From contig NZ_JACVAU010000002.1 of NCBI RefSeq assembly GCF_014852005.1, forward strand, positions 868,001 through 932,000: a DNA stretch of 64,000 nt. Direction: 5' to 3'. The stretch is from Pseudoxanthomonas sp. PXM03 (GTDB lineage Bacteria; Pseudomonadota; Gammaproteobacteria; Xanthomonadales; Xanthomonadaceae). Below the pieces are notes generated by a model that did no database searches, was not told where the DNA came from, and saw only the letters and a program-made list of their open reading frames with translations. A program made the position numbers and the translations under genes. This document shows positions 3,158 through 20,364 of this stretch, piece by piece. How positions within the stretch are numbered: position 1 is the stretch's first letter; each line of letters starts with the position of its first letter.

Positions 3158-4317
<1,160 letters not shown>

Positions 4318-4359
4318 TCACGTTTCACGAGGGTTGTTCCCCAAGTCCCTGTTCCCCTT

Positions 4360-4380
4360 GGGATCACCCGTGGTGATCCC
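4360..4380. promoter_or_regulatory. Perfect 9-bp inverted repeat between pilM and mrcA
   Basis: Arms GGGATCACC and GGTGATCCC are separated by CGT. The site covers about positions -43 to -23 relative to the start predicted from the TATACT -10 box at 4391, so it overlaps the mrcA -35 region. It could be an operator for a dimeric regulator or, less likely, a transcript hairpin between the divergent genes. No T-tract follows on either strand. Confidence 0.55.
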
Positions 4381-4390
4381 GGCGGTCATC

Positions 4391-4396
4391 TATACT
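4391..4396 (+). promoter_or_regulatory. Candidate -10 box of mrcA
   Basis: TATACT matches the sigma70 -10 consensus at five of six positions and lies 35 bases before the chosen mrcA start. A good -35 is not evident; the expected position is occupied by the inverted repeat at 4360-4380, so an activator or repressor may act there. Confidence 0.45.
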
Positions 4397-4431
4397 CTGC
4401 CGCTACGAATTCTGCAATCGGAAAGCACTGG

Positions 4432-6858
4432 ATGTCCCGTTTCCGTCGTCTTCTCCGTTGGACCCTCATCACGTTCCTGATACTTGCCCTCGCCGGCCTG
4501 GCCGGTCTGGGGGTGCTGTACTACACGGTTTCGTCCAAGGTCCCGGACGTCCAGTCCCTGCGGAACGTGGAACTGCAGGAACCCCTCTACATCTACGCCA
4601 GCGACGGCCGGCTGATGGGACTGTACGGCGAGATCCGGCGCTATCCCGTCCAGATCGACAAGGTCCCGGCCCGGGTCAAGCAGGCCTTCGTCGCGGCCGA
4701 GGACAGCAAGTTCTACGAGCACAACGGCATCGACCCCACGGGTATCGCCCGTGCCGTCTGGCAGATCGTCAGCCGCAAGGAAGGCCGCGTGGCCGGCGGC
4801 AGCACCATCACCCAGCAGGTGGCCCGGCAGTGGTTCCTCAGCTCCGAGTACAGCTACACCCGCAAGCTGGTGGAGATGATGCTCGCCATCCGCATCGAGA
4901 AGATGCTGACCAAGGACGAGATCCTTGAGCTGTACCTCAACAAGAGCTTCTTCGGGAACCGCTCCTATGGCGTGGCCGCCGCCGCCGAGTACTACTACGG
5001 CAAGACGCTCGACCAGTTGACCCTGGCCGAGACCGCCACCCTGGTCAGCGCGTTGAAGTTCCCGTCCAGCGGCAATCCGATCAGCAATCCCGGCCGCAAC
5101 CAGCAGCGCAGCGCCTATGTCGTGGAGCGCATGCGCGAGGATGGTTACGTCACCGCCGCCGATGCCGCGCAGGCCAAGGCCGAGCCCATGCACGCCAAAC
5201 CGCATGAGCGGCCGATCGAGGTGCACGCGCCCTACGTGACCGAGATGGTGCGCCAGGAGATGATCGCGCGCTTCGGGCCCGAGGCGCTGACCAAGGGCTA
5301 CCACGTGACCACCACGCTGGATGCCACGCTGCAGGCCGCTGCCAACGACGCGGTACGGGACGGGCTGGGTCTGTACGACCACCGCCATGGCTGGAACGGC
5401 GTTGAACGGCATTTCGACGTGGGCGCCGACGCGGATGCGACCACGCTGGCCACGCACCTGCGGGGCGTGCCGGTGCAGAACGGCATGATCCCGGTAGTGG
5501 TGGCGCGCACCGCCGATGACGGCAGCGCGACGGTGGTGATGGCGGATGGCAAGGAACTCGTCCTGCCCGCAGCCGCCAGCAAGTGGACCGGTCGCACGCC
5601 CGCCAAGCTGTTCAAGCGCGGCGACATGGCCCGCATCAAGGCCGGCAAGGAAGAAGGCACCTATGTGGTCGACCAGATCCCGCGCGCGCAGGCCGCGCTG
5701 GTATCGCTGGATGCGAACAACGGCGCCCTGCGCGCGCTGGTGGGCGGCTACAGCTTCGCTGGCAACAAGTTCAACCGCGCCACCCAGGCGCGGCGCCAGC
5801 CGGGCTCCAGCTTCAAGCCCTTCCTGTACGCGGCCTCGTTCGAGAAGGGGTTCAACCCCGCTTCGATCGTGCTGGACGCCCCGGTCGTGTTCCGCGACCG
5901 TCGCGGCCACATGTGGCGGCCGCAGAACGATGGCGGTGGCTTCCGCGGCCCGATGCGGCTGCGCGAAGCGCTCGTGCAGTCGCGAAACCTGGTGTCGGTG
6001 CGCCTGCTGGACGGCATGGGTGTGCCGTTCGCGCGCACCTACATCAGCCAGTTCGGCTTCGAGGAAGCCGAACTGCCGCCGAACCTGTCGATGTCGCTGG
6101 GCACGGCCTCGCTGACCCCGCTCTCCGTGGCACGGGGTTATGCGGTGTTCGCCAATGGTGGGTCGCGGGTGACGCCGTGGTTCATCGACGAAGTGAAGGA
6201 CCGCGAGGGCAACGTGGTGTTCAAGGAGAATCCGGCCGTCGCCTGTCGCGGGTGCGGCCAGGGCCAACAGGGCGGCAGTACGCCGTCCAGCCAGGTGGTG
6301 GACGGCTTCAACTTCGGTCCTGCCGATGCCGCCAAGCCCGCCGCGGCCGCCGTCACGCAGAAGCCCACGGAAGAAGCGAAGCCGGCCGACCCGAATGCCG
6401 TCACCGCGCCGCGCGCCATCGACGAGCGTACCGCGTACCAGTTGGTGTCGATGATGCGCGACGTGGTCCAGCGCGGCACCGGCACCGCAGCCAAGGTGCT
6501 GGGGCGCGAAGACGTGGGCGGCAAGACCGGCTCCACCAACGACCATCGGGACGCATGGTTCGGCGGCTTCGGCGGCACGTACGCCACCGTGGTGTGGGTG
6601 GGCCGCGACAACTTCCAGTCGCTCGGCTATCGCGAATACGGCGGCAAGGCCGCGCTGCCGATCTGGATCGACTACATGCGCGTGGCGCTGAAGGACAAGC
6701 CGGTCGCGCTCAACGATCCGCCCGACGGCATGGTGCAGGCCACGCTGAACGGCGTGACCGAATGGGTGAAGGTCGAAGACATGGATCGCATCCAGGACTA
6801 CGACCTGTACGGCCCCGAAGATGCCGTGCCGGACGAGGAAGCGTTCGACATCTTCTGA
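4432..6858 (+). CDS. mrcA: Penicillin-binding protein 1A, bifunctional glycosyltransferase/transpeptidase
   Basis: Class A PBP of 808 residues that polymerises and cross-links peptidoglycan at the inner membrane. The membrane anchor is at residues ~10-32. A glycosyltransferase family 51 domain follows ([14 protein letters not shown] with catalytic Glu, [17 protein letters not shown]), then an OB-like insert, then the transpeptidase domain with SSFK (Ser ~459), SRN (~518) and KTG (~698). A roughly 50-residue Ala/Pro-rich insert precedes the KTG region. The ATG at 4432 is chosen for its GGAAAG ribosome site and because the family begins just before the membrane anchor; the frame is open to 4297. 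It is divergent from pilM, the usual order in gammaproteobacteria. Confidence 0.96.
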
Positions 6859-13942: not shown

Positions 13943-13971
13943 AAAAACCCCGGCACCTCACGATGCCGGGG
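13943..13971 (-). terminator. Rho-independent terminator of the TonB receptor operon
   Basis: An 8-bp stem (CCCCGGCA with TGCCGGGG) and 8-base loop are followed on the minus strand by TTTTTGTTT. It is placed 28 bases after the receptor stop. Confidence 0.88.
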
Positions 13972-13998
13972 CCCACGTCCAGCGCGTCTCCGCGCGGC

Positions 13999-16449
13999 TC
14001 AGAACTTCACGACGACTTCCATTCCGTAGGTGCGCGGCTCGCTGATGGTGGCCCCCACCACGCCCAGCGGTCCGCGCCCGTAGGTGTTCAGGCCCTTCAC
14101 GTACTGGTTGTCGAACACGTTGTTGCCATAGATCGCCCAGCTCCAATGTCCGCTTGGCGCTGTCCAGCCGACACGCATGTCCGTGCGGTCACGCGCTTCG
14201 CCGATATCGAGCAGCGCATTGACGCCACAGTCGCCCTGCAGGTCGGAGCCGGCATTGCAGCGGCTGCGTCCGCGGTAGGCATGGCGTGCGGAGAAGCGCA
14301 GATCGCCGTGTCCGGCCAGGTCCACGCGATACGCCGCGCCGATCGATGCGGTGAACCGCGGCTCACCGGTGGGCTCGCCATCCAGGTCGATGCCTTCCGG
14401 CGTCACGTAATCCTTGTACTTGGAATCGATCCATTCGGCCTGCGCATCCAGCGTGAATGCATCCGTCACTTTCCAGCGCATGTCGAAATCGATGCCGGTC
14501 GCTTCGAGGTCACCGGTATCGAACACGAAGCGCGGGATGTCGACCGGGTTGTTCGGGTCAGGATCGATCAGCCGGATCGACTGCCGGTTGTCGTAGCGAT
14601 AATGGAACAGCGATGCGTTGTACGAAAAGCGGCCGAAGGACTGCTTGATGCCGGCCTCCAGGTTCCATACATCCTCGTTCTCGAACGCGGGGCCGATCTG
14701 CAGTGCATTGAAGCCACCGGCCTTGTAGCCCTTGGCCAGCGAACCGAACACCATCGTCCTGTCGTTGACGTGGTAGTCCACGACGAAGCGCGGGCTGAAA
14801 TCGCTCCAGCTGCGCTTGTCGCGCACCAGCACGCCCTTGTTCACCATGGCCGGCGGATCGATGAACGCCATGTCGAAGGTCAGCAGTTCACGCGTGATCG
14901 GAATTCCCATCTGCTCCAGCGCAGCGAAGAACCCTAGCGACTCCAGCAGATCCAGCTTGCCCTCCAGCTCGGGTGCATTGCGCGGCGTGTTGAGCCAGGT
15001 GAAATCCTTCTCGTCGCGCGTGTAGCGCAGGCCGAAGGTCAGGTTGAGCTTGTCGGACGCGCGCCAGATCACGTCACCGAAGGCGGCGTACGCGGTGGTC
15101 GACAACGTATTGGTGAAGCGCTCGTTCCAGCGGTCGCCCACCAGCGAGACCGGGATGCCCACGGTCTGCGCCAGGAACGAAGTGAACCCGAACAGGCTGC
15201 CATCCGGCGTCGGTGCGATACCGAGGTTGCGCACGATGTTGTCCACCGCCTCGGTATTCGTGTTGACCTCGCTGGTCTGGTCGGCATCCTCCTTGAAGAA
15301 ACTGGCACCGGCCACCCAGTCCAGGCGCGCGTTGCTGCCGGCGAACTTGAACTCCTGGTAGAACGTCTCGTTGCTTTCGGTATTGACCGAATCGATGTAC
15401 AGGTCGGCCCGGTTGGTGCCGTCCTCCTCGGTCTGGTTCAGCGAATCGTACTGCCGCCACGACGAGGTCGACGTCAGGTTGCCCCAGGTGAACGCGTGGT
15501 CGACGATCAGGGTGACGCCGTCGAACGTGCGCCACTCGGCGTTCTCCGCATCGCTGTAGGTCGGCACCTCGCGCGGATCGAAGTAGTCGTCCGGGTCCAC
15601 GGGCACCGGGGGGCGCTGCGGGTAGGCCGGCAACGGCACGATCCCGGTGGTCACACGGCCGTTCTGGTCCAGGCTCTCGTGGTCCCAGCTGACCAGGGCG
15701 GTGGTGTTCTCGCCCATGCGGACCTGCCAGGCTGCGCGCGCCGCCCACACGTTCTCTCCCCCGAGGTCCTTGCCGGTGGCGCCGTCCTGGAACCAGCCGT
15801 CGCTGTGGTTGAACAAGGCGTTGACGCGCAGCGCGGAGGTCTCGCTGGTGGGGATGTTCCACATCGCATCGGCGTACTGCTTGCCGTAGTTCCCCAACCG
15901 CAACCGCAGGCGCGCCTCGGTTTCGTCCTGCGGCCGGCGCGTCACCAGCGAAATCGCACCCGCCGCCGTGTTGCGGCCGAACAGCGTGCCTTGCGGGCCT
16001 TTCAATACCTCGATGCGCTCGACATCGAGGAACGGCAGCAACACGCCGCCGCCGCGACCGCCGTACACGCCATCCACGAATATCCCGACCGCCGGATCGG
16101 TCCCGATGCCGAAGTCGCTGGTCTCCACGCCACGCAGGCGGAACGAAGGTTGCGTGGGCTGCACGGCATCCACCACCAGGCCAGGCACGAATGCATCGAT
16201 GTCACCGAGGTTCTCGGCCGCCACGTCGTCGAGCAGTTGCTGATCCACGACCTGCAGTGCGATCGGCACGTCCTGGAGCTCCTGCGAACGGCTCTGCGCG
16301 GTCACGGTGATGGTGTCCAGGTCGGTCGCCTGCTGCTCACCCTCGGGCGTGGCCTGCGCCCAGGCCGTGCCGCCCGTGCCCAGCACCACACAGCCGCCGA
16401 ACAGTGCGCGACGCAGACCCACGACCAGATTCCGTTGCATCACTTTCAT
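13999..16449 (-). CDS. TonB-dependent outer-membrane receptor
   Basis: An 816-residue outer-membrane active transporter. It has a signal peptide ending at AWAQA (~residue 32), then a short TonB-box-like stretch (LDTITVTAQ), a plug domain (DVPIALQVV, FRLRGVE, ERIEVLKGPQGTLFGRN) and a 22-strand barrel ending in an aromatic residue (EVVVKF). The style of the plug resembles receptors for hydrophobic or plant-derived compounds in sphingomonads and Caulobacter rather than classic siderophore receptors, but the substrate is unknown. The ATG at 16449 sits five bases after GGGAGG; a GTG one codon upstream is possible. It is the third gene of the beta-helix/cytochrome operon. Confidence 0.92.
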   Translation of the reverse strand: MKVMQRNLVVGLRRALFGGCVVLGTGGTAWAQATPEGEQQATDLDTITVTAQSRSQELQDVPIALQVVDQQLLDDVAAENLGDIDAFVPGLVVDAVQPTQPSFRLRGVETSDFGIGTDPAVGIFVDGVYGGRGGGVLLPFLDVERIEVLKGPQGTLFGRNTAAGAISLVTRRPQDETEARLRLRLGNYGKQYADAMWNIPTSETSALRVNALFNHSDGWFQDGATGKDLGGENVWAARAAWQVRMGENTTALVSWDHESLDQNGRVTTGIVPLPAYPQRPPVPVDPDDYFDPREVPTYSDAENAEWRTFDGVTLIVDHAFTWGNLTSTSSWRQYDSLNQTEEDGTNRADLYIDSVNTESNETFYQEFKFAGSNARLDWVAGASFFKEDADQTSEVNTNTEAVDNIVRNLGIAPTPDGSLFGFTSFLAQTVGIPVSLVGDRWNERFTNTLSTTAYAAFGDVIWRASDKLNLTFGLRYTRDEKDFTWLNTPRNAPELEGKLDLLESLGFFAALEQMGIPITRELLTFDMAFIDPPAMVNKGVLVRDKRSWSDFSPRFVVDYHVNDRTMVFGSLAKGYKAGGFNALQIGPAFENEDVWNLEAGIKQSFGRFSYNASLFHYRYDNRQSIRLIDPDPNNPVDIPRFVFDTGDLEATGIDFDMRWKVTDAFTLDAQAEWIDSKYKDYVTPEGIDLDGEPTGEPRFTASIGAAYRVDLAGHGDLRFSARHAYRGRSRCNAGSDLQGDCGVNALLDIGEARDRTDMRVGWTAPSGHWSWAIYGNNVFDNQYVKGLNTYGRGPLGVVGATISEPRTYGMEVVVKF

Positions 16450-16485
16450 CACTCCCTCCCGAGAAGCGTTGTGCGGATACCGGCT

Positions 16486-17661
16486 TCAGACGGCCGGCGG
16501 CGGTTGAATGTCTGTTCCATTCGCTGCATCGCAGCTTCCCGGCTGCGCATTGATCCACGCGCGGATCAGTTCGACACCCTCGCGATGGACGACCGACCGG
16601 CCCAGCTCGGGCATCATGATCGCGGGATCGTTGCTGTTCATGCGGAAATCGAAGATGGACGCTTCCGCGCTACCCGGCACGATGTCGTGCATCCGGTTGC
16701 CGGTGCCCTTGCCCGCGGCGATGGGCTGCTTGCAGAAACCCAGCTTGAGGCGGTCCTGCGTGCCCGCATCCAGCCACAGGCCGGAGGTGATGGCCGGACC
16801 GGTGGCGCTGTGGCAATGTCCGCAGTTGATATCGAGATAGGCGCGTGCGCGTGCGTCGAGCGAAGCACGCGCATCGGACGCATCCGCCAGCCGCGGTGGC
16901 TGCGCGGGTACGCCGGCCAGATAGCCGACCCGCGCGAGGTGGGCCAACTGGTTGTCGCGACCACCCGCGTAGTCGAAGTCGCGGTTGAGGTGGCGGGCCT
17001 TCGGCCCGATCGGCAGCAGCTTGCGCGATTTGTTGTCGGTGATGTGGCAGCCGCCGCACTGGTTCTGGTCGGGCACCTGGTAGTTCGCGACTTCGCGGCC
17101 ACCGTGTGCATCGACCAGGTCGAGCGTGACCAGCTCGCCGGTGCGCTTCAGTGTGGCCTCGGTCTGGGCATCGTTCCACACGTAGGGAAGCGCGACCCAG
17201 CCTTCCGCACGGTGCACCAGCAGGCGCGTTTCGACCAGGCGGACCTTCGACAGGTCCAGCGCTTCGCCTTCGAGCGAAGACGATGACGGTGGCGTGCGCG
17301 CGACCGATTTTCCATCCCACGCCCTGCCAGCGGGCAACGGGTAGTAGAACGTCTTGCTGAGGATGGTGCCCACCGGGAAGTCGAAACTCCGGTCCGGCTG
17401 ATAGGTGGCCGCCATGCCCACCGGCATCCAGACGGTGCGCAGCTTGTGCGCGTAGTCGCTGAACAACGGCGTGTTGAGGTCATAGGGCACCACGCCCTCA
17501 TTGAGCCGCAACCAGCCGTCTTCGACCCGCAACACACCCCACTCCGCCAGGGACGCCGGCTGTCCCTCGGCAACAAAATGCACACGGGATGCAGGCTGGC
17601 AGGCGACCAGCACCAGGCACGCTGCCAGCAGCAGGAGGAACGCCGTGCACCGATGCCGCAT
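16486..17661 (-). CDS. Di-heme c-type cytochrome lipoprotein of the SO_2930/HNE_0200 family
   Basis: A 391-residue exported lipoprotein (signal with lipobox LVAC, Cys21). Two covalent heme sites are clear: CGGCH at 202-206 and CGHCH at 280-284. A Met-rich segment near the end (AIMMPELGRS) could supply an axial ligand. The N-terminal half (DLNTPLFSDYAHKLRTVWMP, FPVGTILSKTFYYP) is a beta-rich domain found in this family. As I recall, the family (TIGR03806) occurs regularly beside a beta-helix protein of TIGR03805, exactly as here, with no assigned function. Nine bases separate it from the upstream gene and 36 from the receptor start. Confidence 0.88.
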   Translation of the reverse strand: MRHRCTAFLLLLAACLVLVACQPASRVHFVAEGQPASLAEWGVLRVEDGWLRLNEGVVPYDLNTPLFSDYAHKLRTVWMPVGMAATYQPDRSFDFPVGTILSKTFYYPLPAGRAWDGKSVARTPPSSSSLEGEALDLSKVRLVETRLLVHRAEGWVALPYVWNDAQTEATLKRTGELVTLDLVDAHGGREVANYQVPDQNQCGGCHITDNKSRKLLPIGPKARHLNRDFDYAGGRDNQLAHLARVGYLAGVPAQPPRLADASDARASLDARARAYLDINCGHCHSATGPAITSGLWLDAGTQDRLKLGFCKQPIAAGKGTGNRMHDIVPGSAEASIFDFRMNSNDPAIMMPELGRSVVHREGVELIRAWINAQPGSCDAANGTDIQPPPAV

Positions 17662-17670
17662 GCGTCTTCC

Positions 17671-18906
17671 TCAACCGCGCTTCAGGTCGACTGCAGGCAA
17701 TCGCGGAAGTTCGCAATCGTGCGCCTTCATGTCCTTGCCGGGGCTCTTGTAGCCACCGGGCCCGTCGGCATTGACCACGCCGCTGACATCGCGCAGGCAG
17801 ATCTGCGGACCGGTCTTCCTGCCGTCCACCACGCGATCCTGATTGAAGTAGCCATCCCAGAGCACGTCGGGAAAGCTGCCGCGCAGGCCGTAGACCGCCA
17901 CCTTCAGCGCCTTGAGGTCGAAGCCGTCGGGCGAATCCCCGCCGCCGGAGAGCGTGTTGCCATGGATGAAGATGCGCTCGGGATAAGGATCGAAGTTGGG
18001 CGAGGCGCTGCTGTCCTTGTACCCGGTGGAATACACGCTGGACACGATGATGTTGGCCGTTGCGTTGTCGCGGATCTCGTTGGCGAAGACTTCGATGTCG
18101 TCGTTGGAATTGATGACGATGCCCGAGCCCGCCGGCACGCTGGCGACCGGTGTGCCCTTGGCGCCGAAGTTCTCGTGGTTGTTGGCGATGACCTTGTTGT
18201 TGTACACGCGGATGTTGCCGCCCTGCTGGGACAGGCCCGGCATGTTGAACACCAGGATGCCGCCGGTATTGCCGGTGGCGACGTTTTCGTAGACGTCCGC
18301 GTTGATCGTGTTCTCGACCTCGATACCGGCGACGTTCTGTTCGGCGCGGCTGCGGCGCACGATCACCCCGTCGGACTGACCCACGTAGATCCCCGCATCG
18401 GACGCACCGATGGACACCGTGTCCTCGATCAGCACGTTCTTCGTCAGCACCGGGTAGATGCCGTAGGCACCGTTCTTGGTGCTCGGCCCACCGGTCCACT
18501 GCACTTTCACGCCCCGGATGGTGATGTTCGCGGACTCGCTGATCTTCAGGCCATCGCCCTTGGAATCCTCGATGGTGAGGTTCTCGATGGTGAAGTCGTT
18601 GCCGTTCACCAGCAGGCCCTCCGCGCCCGCCTTCTGTCCCTTGAAGCTCAGCACGCTCTTGTCCATGCCGGCGCCCCGGATCGTCACGCCATCGGCGCGC
18701 AGGCTGAGGCTGCGGTCGAAGCTGTGGCGGCCGGCCGGGATTTCGATGACATCACCCCGCTTGGCATCCAGCAGGCGCTCCTGCAGGGTGGTGGCGAAGC
18801 CTGTATCGGCGGCCGCGACGGTGTCGGTCGCGGATGTTCCGGGCTGGCAGCCCGCCGCCAGCAGCACCAGCGCGCCGGCTATCGCCAAGGAAATGCTGCG
18901 TTGCAT
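17671..18906 (-). CDS. Parallel beta-helix lipoprotein (TIGR03805-like)
   Basis: A 411-residue lipoprotein (lipobox LAAG-C, Cys20). After the signal comes a pectate-lyase-like opening (AKRGDVIEIPAGRHSFDRSL, GVTIRGAGMDKSVL) and then a series of beta-helix turns rich in N, I, V and G (ENLTIEDSKGDGLKI, NITIRGVKV, AGIYVGQSDGVIVRRS, AGIEVENTINADVYEN). Such folds usually bind or cleave polysaccharides, but no catalytic residues can be named. The ATG at 18906 has a GGGAGGGGA ribosome site. It is first in a likely operon with the di-heme cytochrome and the TonB receptor and is divergent from an AraC regulator. Confidence 0.88.
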   Translation of the reverse strand: MQRSISLAIAGALVLLAAGCQPGTSATDTVAAADTGFATTLQERLLDAKRGDVIEIPAGRHSFDRSLSLRADGVTIRGAGMDKSVLSFKGQKAGAEGLLVNGNDFTIENLTIEDSKGDGLKISESANITIRGVKVQWTGGPSTKNGAYGIYPVLTKNVLIEDTVSIGASDAGIYVGQSDGVIVRRSRAEQNVAGIEVENTINADVYENVATGNTGGILVFNMPGLSQQGGNIRVYNNKVIANNHENFGAKGTPVASVPAGSGIVINSNDDIEVFANEIRDNATANIIVSSVYSTGYKDSSASPNFDPYPERIFIHGNTLSGGGDSPDGFDLKALKVAVYGLRGSFPDVLWDGYFNQDRVVDGRKTGPQICLRDVSGVVNADGPGGYKSPGKDMKAHDCELPRLPAVDLKRG

Positions 18907-18924
18907 GAGTCTCCCCTCCCATAC

Positions 18925-18990
18925 GCCTGCGTAGTGCAGGCCAGTCTGGTGTGCGGGCACGTATGACACGGAGGGCGGGAGCGGCATACT
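18925..18990. promoter_or_regulatory. Divergent control region of beta-helix operon and AraC gene
   Basis: The 119-base gap holds a 6-bp inverted repeat (GCCTGC, 5-base spacer, GCAGGC; 18925-18941). On the plus strand TATGAC (18962-18967) and CATACT (18985-18990) are 17 bases apart and could form the AraC-gene promoter. An AraC-type site for both directions is expected here but cannot be defined from one sequence. Confidence 0.35.
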
Positions 18991-19025
18991 AAGGGGGGCA
19001 AAGCGGACAAGCTGGAGGGGCTTCG

Positions 19026-20063
19026 ATGCGCTGGAAAACCGGACTGGGCAATCCCCTGTCGATCGCCAATCTGCCCACCAACATGCTGTGCGGGCTGGTG
19101 CTGCTGGCCGGCGAGTTCGGCGTGAATGCCGAGAGCTGGTTCGCCGGCATGCGCTTGAACGTGCAGGAAATCCACGATCCGCAGGCGCGCGTGTCTTACC
19201 GCCAGGCCAGCGAGATCATCCGCCGCGCCCTGCCCACCTTGCCCATCGACGGCGTCGGCCTGGCCATGGGCGGCAAGCAGAACGGCGGCAACTTCGGCCT
19301 GCTCGGGCTGGCGATGAAGACCGCGCCCACGTTCGGCGATGCGGTGCAGATCGGCCTCGAGTACCAGCGCAACCTGGGGCCGCTGATGGACCTGGAACTG
19401 GAAGACCGCGATGAAGGCGCGTTGGCCGTGATCGCCACAGCACCGGAAGAGGCCACCGACCTGCTGCCGTTCCTGTGCGAGGAAATGTTCGCCAGCACGC
19501 TGATGCTGGCGCGCGAACTGGCGGGCCCGGACTTCCGTCCGTTGCGGCTGGAACTCGGCTATCCCGCACCGCGCTACGCTGCCCGTTACGACGACCTGTT
19601 CGGTTGCGAGGTCCGCTTCAACCAGCCGCGGCATGCCATGGTGGTGGATCGTCGCTGGCTGGAACTGCCGTTCGCCAGCTACAACCCGGTGACGTCACGG
19701 CAGGCGCTCGCGTTGTGCCAGGCACAGCTGACGGCGATGTCGTTGCGTGGCGAGACCACGGCGGCGGTGGAGCGGCAGTTGCGTCCGCGCCTGCGCGAGA
19801 ATCCGCAGATGACCGACGTGGCCACCGCGCTGCATCTCAGCGAACGCACGCTGCGCCGCCAGCTCGCCGAGGAAGGCACCAGCTTCAGCGCGGTGCACGA
19901 CCGCGTCCGCACGGAGCGTGCGCTGGAACTTCTGCACGACGAAGAAACCACCATTGCCACCGTCGGTAGCCAGATAGGATTCAACGATGTGCGGGAGTTC
20001 CGCCGCGCGTTCAAACGTTGGACCGGGCACACACCCAGCGATACCCGACGTCGCCCCACGTAG
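19026..20063 (+). CDS. AraC-family transcriptional regulator with Arabinose_bd-type sensor domain
   Basis: A 345-residue regulator. The N-terminal ~200 residues resemble the sensor domain seen in OruR/ArgR-like AraC proteins (QASEIIRRALPTLP, LGLAMKTAPTFGDAVQIG). The C-terminal ~90 residues form a double HTH (DVATALHLSERTLRRQLAEE and TIATVGSQIGFNDVREFRRA followed by FKRWTGHTPSD). A GGAGGGG ribosome site precedes the ATG. Its divergent position makes it the likely regulator of the beta-helix/cytochrome/receptor operon; this is inference. The TAG stop lies within a GTAG repeat. Confidence 0.92.
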   Translation: MRWKTGLGNPLSIANLPTNMLCGLVLLAGEFGVNAESWFAGMRLNVQEIHDPQARVSYRQASEIIRRALPTLPIDGVGLAMGGKQNGGNFGLLGLAMKTAPTFGDAVQIGLEYQRNLGPLMDLELEDRDEGALAVIATAPEEATDLLPFLCEEMFASTLMLARELAGPDFRPLRLELGYPAPRYAARYDDLFGCEVRFNQPRHAMVVDRRWLELPFASYNPVTSRQALALCQAQLTAMSLRGETTAAVERQLRPRLRENPQMTDVATALHLSERTLRRQLAEEGTSFSAVHDRVRTERALELLHDEETTIATVGSQIGFNDVREFRRAFKRWTGHTPSDTRRRPT

Positions 20064-20084
20064 AGCGGAGCGTGCTCTGCTGCC
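20060..20084 (+). repeat. Single GTAG palindrome (GCGGAGCGTGCTCTGC stem) at AraC stop
   Basis: GTAG followed by an imperfect hairpin (AGCGGAGC, GT, GCTCTGCT). The TAG of the regulator gene is the TAG of the GTAG motif. Related to 20283-20306. Confidence 0.75.
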
Positions 20085-20282: not shown

Positions 20283-20364
20283 GTAGAGCGGAGCTTGCTC
20301 CGCTGCTTTCGCTTTCGCGCAAACCTGTCGGATGGCCTCCGGCGCCAAGCAAGCCCGGCGCTAC
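20283..20364. repeat. Inverted pair of GTAG palindromes
   Basis: The left element (20283-20306) is GTAG plus the hairpin GAGCGGAGC TT GCTCCGCTG. The right element (20341-20364, minus orientation) is GTAGCGCCGGGCTTGC followed by TTGGCGCC. They share the GTAG head and overall form but differ in stem sequence. They lie just beyond the ridA stop. Confidence 0.75.

Follow-up and report, generated by a model that had tools for sequence, protein, structure and literature searches.

What does a locus accomplish in which an exported beta-helix protein and a diheme cytochrome stand beside an outer-membrane transporter and a ligand-sensing regulator, and do its genes form one system? The question is raised by a 64,000-nucleotide stretch of DNA from the soil and water bacterium Pseudoxanthomonas sp. 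PXM03 (assembly GCF_014852005.1, contig NZ_JACVAU010000002.1, positions 868,001 to 932,000; hereafter the window, whose own numbering is used below). An original prediction, made from the sequence alone, had grouped the four genes as a candidate for a single inducible envelope pathway. Two elements of the answer given here are new, namely a direct-repeat operator between the AraC regulator gene and the operon, and the likeness of the cytochrome's first heme domain to cytochromes P460. A literature search covering titles and abstract openings in one library returned no study on the function of the pair formed by the beta-helix protein (family TIGR03805) and the cytochrome (family TIGR03806); in passages of papers that name them, SO2930 and SO2931 appear as entries in cytochrome lists, expression changes or deletions.

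A four-gene unit and its operator

The operon consists of three minus-strand genes that run to one terminator, with the regulator gene divergent from them, an arrangement that had been predicted and that both the sequence and family models confirm. The beta-helix lipoprotein (17671..18906, minus strand; 411 amino acids) is a TIGR03805 member by NCBIfam (424.7 bits, cut-off 141.5); its frame is open to 18987, and the ATG at 18906 is its most likely start because the signal peptide and lipobox begin there, which therefore leaves a gap of 119 bases, containing the operator, between the regulator gene and the operon. The diheme cytochrome lipoprotein (16486..17661, minus strand; 391 amino acids), in which two CxxCH motifs are present (17044-17058 and 16810-16824), is a member of TIGR03806, the 'SO2930 family diheme c-type cytochrome' (381.4 bits, cut-off 313.3). 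The TonB-dependent receptor (13999..16452, minus strand; 817 amino acids, or 816 from the ATG at 16449) carries the TonB plug and barrel domains of Pfam, and the AraC-family regulator (19026..20063, plus strand) an Arabinose_bd ligand domain and the helix-turn-helix HTH_18. For these last two proteins no listed NCBIfam model reaches its cut-off: QhpR, GliR and CypR are nearest to the regulator, and the receptor, at 147.7 bits under the cut-off of 223.5, is not a member of the TonB-dependent siderophore receptors of TIGR01783. Nine bases (17662-17670) separate the first two genes, as predicted, and the predicted 36 bases between cytochrome and receptor hold if the latter starts at the ATG at 16449, becoming 33 if it starts at the GTG at 16452.

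The co-inheritance of the four genes was followed in a survey of 100 relatives, the window's own genome included. TIGR03805 is over its cut-off in 35 of them, at more than 400 bits in 33 (the strong relatives) and at about 190 bits in two. A close relative of the window's AraC protein occurs in 33 genomes, which are 32 of the 33 strong ones plus G022, so that beta-helix and AraC agree in 98 of the 100 genomes (32 with both, 66 with neither). Both mismatches lie at contig ends: in G003 the regulator is missing since the locus is a 3.5-kilobase contig on which both end genes are cut, and in G022 the contig ends within the signal peptide of the beta-helix protein. The receptor is present in 34 genomes, comprising 32 of the 33 strong ones (it is cut by the contig in G003) and two (G006 and G086) with more distant matches, of 46 and 42% identity, where the pair is not found. 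Gene order is equally constant, with the cytochrome adjoining the strong beta-helix gene in 33 of 33 cases (it was looked for beside that gene only), the receptor next after it on the same strand in all 33 (cut in G003), and the regulator adjacent and divergent in 32, a fragment being left in G003 and another receptor gene intervening in L052. These data support the view that in the Lysobacterales the four genes constitute one inherited and, judging from the operator described below, co-regulated unit.

The element in question is 39 bases long (18971..19009, minus strand, read towards the operon), and is conserved in the gap between AraC gene and operon in Pseudoxanthomonas, Stenotrophomonas, Lysobacter and Arenimonas. 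It is followed, 22 bases further on, by CAGACT (18943..18948, minus strand), a possible -10 element of which AGACT is retained in most aligned relatives and which may serve the operon's promoter. In Rhodanobacter and related loci, most clearly in L145, L152 and L176, the element can be read as a direct repeat of the type TGGCCGATTTGCCC, its two copies spaced about 23 bases from each other. Such a form is to be expected of an AraC-family site, and the 39-base element is proposed as the site to which this regulator would bind.

A wider test of the association is offered by 80 named loci, the best of at least 583 confirmed ones, which lean towards close relatives. Here a regulator was called at 250 bits or more and a site by its first half-site, sought within 400 bases ahead of the beta-helix gene and allowed two mismatches at most; L126 was dropped from the operator count, having too little upstream sequence, and so were the background windows, some draws of which overlapped real sites. 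The half-site is present in 24 of the 25 loci that carry this AraC, and in the twenty-fifth (L190), where the receptor is first in the operon, a copy with three mismatches stands before the receptor. It is missing, with at least four mismatches, from 50 of the 54 loci without this AraC in view. As to the four site-bearing loci among these, the AraC gene is cut by the contig in L133 and lies about 13 kilobases upstream on the same contig in L168, the contig of L137 begins nearby and its assembly holds no AraC at an E-value of 1e-30, and the site of L199 has three mismatches. The regulator gene may also stand at some distance: in L153, L170, L171 and L186 it is 1-5 kilobases from the pair, with the site still before the beta-helix gene. 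When nine other site-less genomes were searched whole, seven had no AraC match at an E-value of 1e-30 and the remaining two, both Pseudomonas, had matches of at most 38% identity. In the window's own genome the whole operator occurs once at up to three mismatches; a backwards control pattern also gave one match, so that weaker regulon sites would be indistinguishable from chance. The regulator thus looks like a single-target one, and its operator could be built into a reporter to search for the inducing compound, and hence for the likely substrate.

Beyond the Lysobacterales the picture changes. The two families, described in the prediction as a pair, do occur together in 79 of the 80 named loci (the exception is L179), and in a phylum-wide sample of 398 genomes the cytochrome is matched in 46, over cut-off in 37. 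The receptor subfamily accompanies the pair in only 31 of the 80 loci and this AraC in 25, and outside the Lysobacterales (in Pseudomonas, Microbulbifer and many Alphaproteobacteria) the pair mostly stands on its own. For this reason the receptor and the regulator are to be regarded, as far as these genomes go, as lineage-specific additions to a widespread pair; the prediction of one four-gene system, which a comparison of genome neighbourhoods was to decide, holds within the Lysobacterales, where co-inheritance and operator bear it out, and fails as a general rule. The window locus resembles the known pair in that both proteins are members by curated score and are arranged as in those 79 loci, and departs from it in adding a TonB receptor, an AraC protein and a conserved operator, a set missing in most other lineages seen. 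In four alphaproteobacterial loci with no AraC in view (L139, L144, L157 and L169), cytochrome and receptor genes are separated by a TetR-type gene of the opposite strand, an apparent swap of regulator within the same module.

The first heme domain of the cytochrome

The function of the cytochrome is the second part of the question. The prediction allowed it either to carry out an oxidation or to accept electrons from one. The alignments used below (A2 and A3) hold 47 sequences, the window's own and those from 46 named loci out of the 80, similar or damaged loci having been thinned by choice, and the structural models of the window's proteins are predicted single chains. The cytochrome model (mean predicted local distance difference test score, pLDDT, 90.8) consists of a beta-rich first half, ending in the heme 1 motif CGGCH (residues 202-206; 17044..17058, minus strand), and a helical, class-I-like second half with the heme 2 motif CGHCH (residues 280-284; 16810..16824, minus strand). 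The heme 1 motif is invariant, as is Met350, which may be the axial ligand of heme 2. For heme 1, the aligned first domain offers no invariant second His or Met.

Structure and profile comparisons both point from this first domain towards cytochromes P460 and c'-beta. With a second-look structure aligner, nine P460/c'-beta entries occupy ranks 1 to 9 at Z 5.4-7.3, values under the level of 8 below which a match can reflect a common arrangement; the next row scores 3.3. A profile of the first domain, compared with one of 21 P460-family sequences, scores 36.5 at a probability of 73%, against a maximum of 18.7 among 100 column shuffles and 19.3 for the reversed profile. Among 32 other protein clusters compared with the same profile, 31 score 21.2 or less, and the thirty-second, at 31.4, is a fusion family that contains this very cytochrome. 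This alignment is not driven by the heme motif, because it is local and stops before CxxCH. A smaller comparison, against two P460 sequences, gave a weak result (probability 7.6%). The Pfam P460 model PF16694 matches 34 of the 47 relatives singly at E-values up to 10, with 1.8e-5 as the best.

The residues that fall into register are also of interest. All 12 multiple alignments place Trp41, Arg75 and Lys103, together with the heme motif, opposite their counterparts in Nitrosomonas europaea cytochrome P460, namely Trp21, Arg44, Lys70 and its heme motif; the codons of Arg75 and Lys103 lie at 17437..17439 and 17353..17355 (minus strand). Neither Arg75 nor Lys103 varies among the 150 segments that reach these positions, which are not 150 independent proteins, some proteins being split into two or three segments and some loci duplicated (L025 = L127, for example); a further 33 segments, those of L120-L123 among them, do not extend over the two residues. 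In the excerpts of PMC11928373 that describe the N. europaea enzyme, Lys70 is the residue cross-linked to the heme, and the cross-link did not form in an Arg44Ala variant.

Fold and profile taken together support the first heme domain as a distant relative of P460/c'-beta, and the TIGR03806 protein, being a distant relative only, is not classed as a cytochrome P460. Because the domain is P460-like, the cytochrome is probably more than an electron carrier, and heme 1, as far as conservation can tell, is probably reactive rather than just an electron wire; the prediction is modified to that extent, and catalysis stays a conditional reading. The assignment makes the function of a cytochrome found in many Proteobacteria testable. 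Should its heme prove catalytic, chemistry of the P460 type would reach into heterotrophs and into the surface processing of organic matter.

The beta-helix partner and a proposed pathway

That the beta-helix protein and the cytochrome belong together is indicated by their fusion. In four genome families (L085-L087, L117, L118 and L119) the two are parts of one protein, beta-helix first; TIGR03805 is over cut-off in all four of the fusions scanned, and TIGR03806 in L085, being just or well below it in L117, L118 and L119. Pairwise identities of the two proteins also track each other best of the four genes (Spearman 0.87 across 55 loci, duplicates included), whereas the receptor follows less closely, at 0.74 with the beta-helix protein, 0.68 with the cytochrome and 0.55 with AraC. 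In L022, L028 and L036 the receptor's closest relatives are unlike those of its operon neighbours, a pattern that suggests exchange of the receptor within the operon. Some further arrangements were observed. A second, unfused TIGR03806-like cytochrome adjoins the fusion in L085 and L086, the gene of a Lipase_bact_N protein lies near it in L085, and L120, L121 and L122 encode large proteins that combine a Glucose/Sorbosone dehydrogenase domain with a distant TIGR03806-like cytochrome domain. In L085-L087 and L117 an AraC gene adjoins that of the fusion; it was considered as an ortholog of the window's and rejected, with an identity of only 21-28% over 207-296 residues, or 38% over 103; L085-L087 contain no operator copy within three mismatches, and the single three-mismatch match of L117 lies elsewhere in the locus.

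The lipobox Cys is found in 47 of 47 aligned beta-helix sequences and in 46 of 47 cytochromes (one gap), and it is followed by Asp in none of the former and in two of the 46 latter. By the usual sorting rule for lipoproteins, a residue other than Asp at this position fits the outer membrane, which is where both would be located.

The beta-helix model (mean pLDDT 90.3) finds its best fold matches in alginate epimerases (Z about 32-33), followed by phage tail proteins, polygalacturonases and NosD. With the mannuronan C5-epimerases AlgE4 and AlgE6 it shares the fold (Z 33, root-mean-square deviation 2.6-2.9 over 289-295 residues) and a YG..P motif. The catalytic residues of AlgE4, which we take to be Tyr149, Asp152, His154 and Asp178, are retained in part: the Tyr is kept, Asp152 and His154 are replaced by Tyr151 and Val153, and Asp178 is not clearly aligned. 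An active epimerase was therefore rejected, with two of four catalytic residues replaced and one not aligned. A set of invariant residues (Trp137, Tyr148, Tyr151, Asp170, Tyr174, Glu196 and Glu198) lies, by alignment and model, on consecutive helix strands or close to them, which suggests a groove of another kind.

These elements can be assembled into a ligand-switched outer-membrane module, which we put forward tentatively as possible, if short of probable. AraC would bind the 39-base direct repeat and switch on a single operon of three envelope proteins. The beta-helix and diheme lipoproteins, because they are fused in other bacteria, would act as a pair, in which the groove of the helix keeps the substrate near the first, P460-like heme, where it would be oxidised or activated, and electrons would leave via the second, class-I-like heme. 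The TonB receptor would then take up the product, which AraC probably senses. From the fold of the groove and the class of the regulator one may guess at a saccharide-like or amphipathic substrate. A more specific form of the proposal, in which TIGR03806 is a lysine-cross-linked P460-type oxidase that works beside an epimerase-like groove to modify an organic polymer or glycolipid for TonB import under a single-target AraC switch, is rather improbable; were it true, a catalytic P460 heme would be at work outside the nitrogen cycle.

A number of observations weigh against the module, in addition to the modest Z scores of the P460 fold matches. Foldseek returned no significant match for the cytochrome model, the window's cytochrome is not matched by PF16694 at E-values up to 10, a genome-wide P460 search found nothing in the window's genome, and among the 47 relatives the P460 model is surpassed by general models of cytochrome c (PF13442 with 46 matches, PF00034 with 44). 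While the fold, with a heme motif at the domain end, looks similar to that of P460/c'-beta, and the Lys and Arg at the Lys70 and Arg44 positions are shared by alignment, the window protein differs in being a lipoprotein with a second heme domain, in escaping the Pfam model and in its unmatched distal carboxylate: Glu144 falls on the catalytic Glu96 in 0 of 12 alignments, which disagree at this point. The beta-helix has lost epimerase residues, which weakens the case for a catalytic or binding groove. The partnership itself has exceptions, since the pair often has neither receptor nor AraC in view among the named loci, and since L054, L055 and L179 have the beta-helix but no cytochrome; the first two, which are the weak genomes of the survey, have a divergent beta-helix and a receptor of the same subfamily, with no cytochrome in view. 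No substrate gene is common to the neighbourhoods scanned, namely the interval between AraC and pair in Dyella and the surroundings of the pair in other families. The one hint that the product is oxidised comes from L190, whose variant operon reads receptor, aldehyde dehydrogenase, beta-helix, cytochrome, with the dehydrogenase gene at 4211-5698 (plus strand) of that locus; beyond this one gene, the plant or aromatic substrates suggested in the prediction found no support.

The main rival, itself rather doubtful, sees in the cytochrome an electron carrier only, with the substrate oxidised by a dehydrogenase encoded elsewhere, the beta-helix as a partner for binding or as a scaffold, and heme 1 as a structural or relay group on a P460-like framework. 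Such a role would suit the second domain, with its resemblance to class-I cytochrome c, and the proteins of L120, L121 and L122, in which related cytochrome domains are combined with a Glucose/Sorbosone dehydrogenase domain. It also has a parallel in Pseudomonas aeruginosa, where excerpts of PMC11893366 describe a cytochrome lipoprotein, SphB, proposed to serve the oxidoreductase SphC. However, no dehydrogenase lies in or beside the window's operon or is found repeatedly near the pair in the neighbourhoods scanned, and a mere relay sits poorly with a heme 1 that lacks an invariant second His or Met while the position of the P460 lysine is invariant. In SphR-sphBCD, an envelope operon induced by lipid, a regulator likewise accompanies a cytochrome lipoprotein, and the parallel ends there: according to the same excerpts, SphC is a flavin mononucleotide-type oxidoreductase and SphD an aldolase-type enzyme, neither of which is found in the window's operon or the neighbours scanned, and the portions of the text available name no TonB receptor or beta-helix for the Sph system. 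The window locus was accordingly rejected as a sphingosine (Sph) system, SphB, SphC and SphD being described there as other kinds of protein.

Weaker alternatives concern detoxification and metals. The pair might act at the cell surface to detoxify nitric oxide, hydroxylamine or peroxide, in which case one lineage would have recruited receptor and AraC for an unrelated nutrient. Known cytochromes P460 oxidise hydroxylamine and c'-beta proteins bind nitric oxide, as stated in PMC11928373 (excerpts), and the pair by itself has a wider distribution than the full set of four genes. Yet the receptor comes after the cytochrome on the same strand in all 33 strong relatives, the operon's one operator goes with an AraC that has an Arabinose_bd domain, and gas chemistry would not need an epimerase-like groove, so that this reading is quite unlikely. 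Least likely, by a little, is metal handling, in which the beta-helix would be a NosD-like copper protein, the cytochrome would alter the metal's oxidation state and the receptor would import a metal complex. NosD is likewise an exported beta-helix, matched by fold at Z 27.5 and weakly by sequence (TIGR04247 35.4 bits, PF05048 33.3 bits), and the receptor is nearest to siderophore-receptor models. Against this, the NosD score is far under the cut-off of 300, so that the protein is not a member, no nos genes adjoin the locus, alginate epimerases fit the fold better (Z 33), the receptor falls short of the siderophore family (147.7 against 223.5 bits), and the MauG-type diheme model PF03150 matches only 5 of the 47 relatives, with a best E-value of 0.17.

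Neighbouring genes and other features

The operon ends at an intrinsic terminator (13945..13974, minus strand), a 13-pair stem followed by T-rich sequence, which confirms the site predicted near 13943-13971; its stem is the longest among the five terminator-like sites of the window, where shuffled sequences lead one to expect 3.5 +/- 1.8. The genes that flank the window's cassette, encoding RecG, RidA, SpoT/RelA and a nucleoside hydrolase, were set aside as clues to the substrate, being housekeeping genes, and the conserved frames c50 and c109 beside Pseudomonas loci look like antisense frames. Sequence searches of solved structures with the beta-helix protein and the cytochrome yielded no useful relatives. 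Just past the AraC gene, two copies of GTAGAGCGGAGCNTGCTC (20060-20077 and 20283-20300, plus strand) lie about 220 bases apart, against 0.3 copies expected, and look like an intergenic repeat element.

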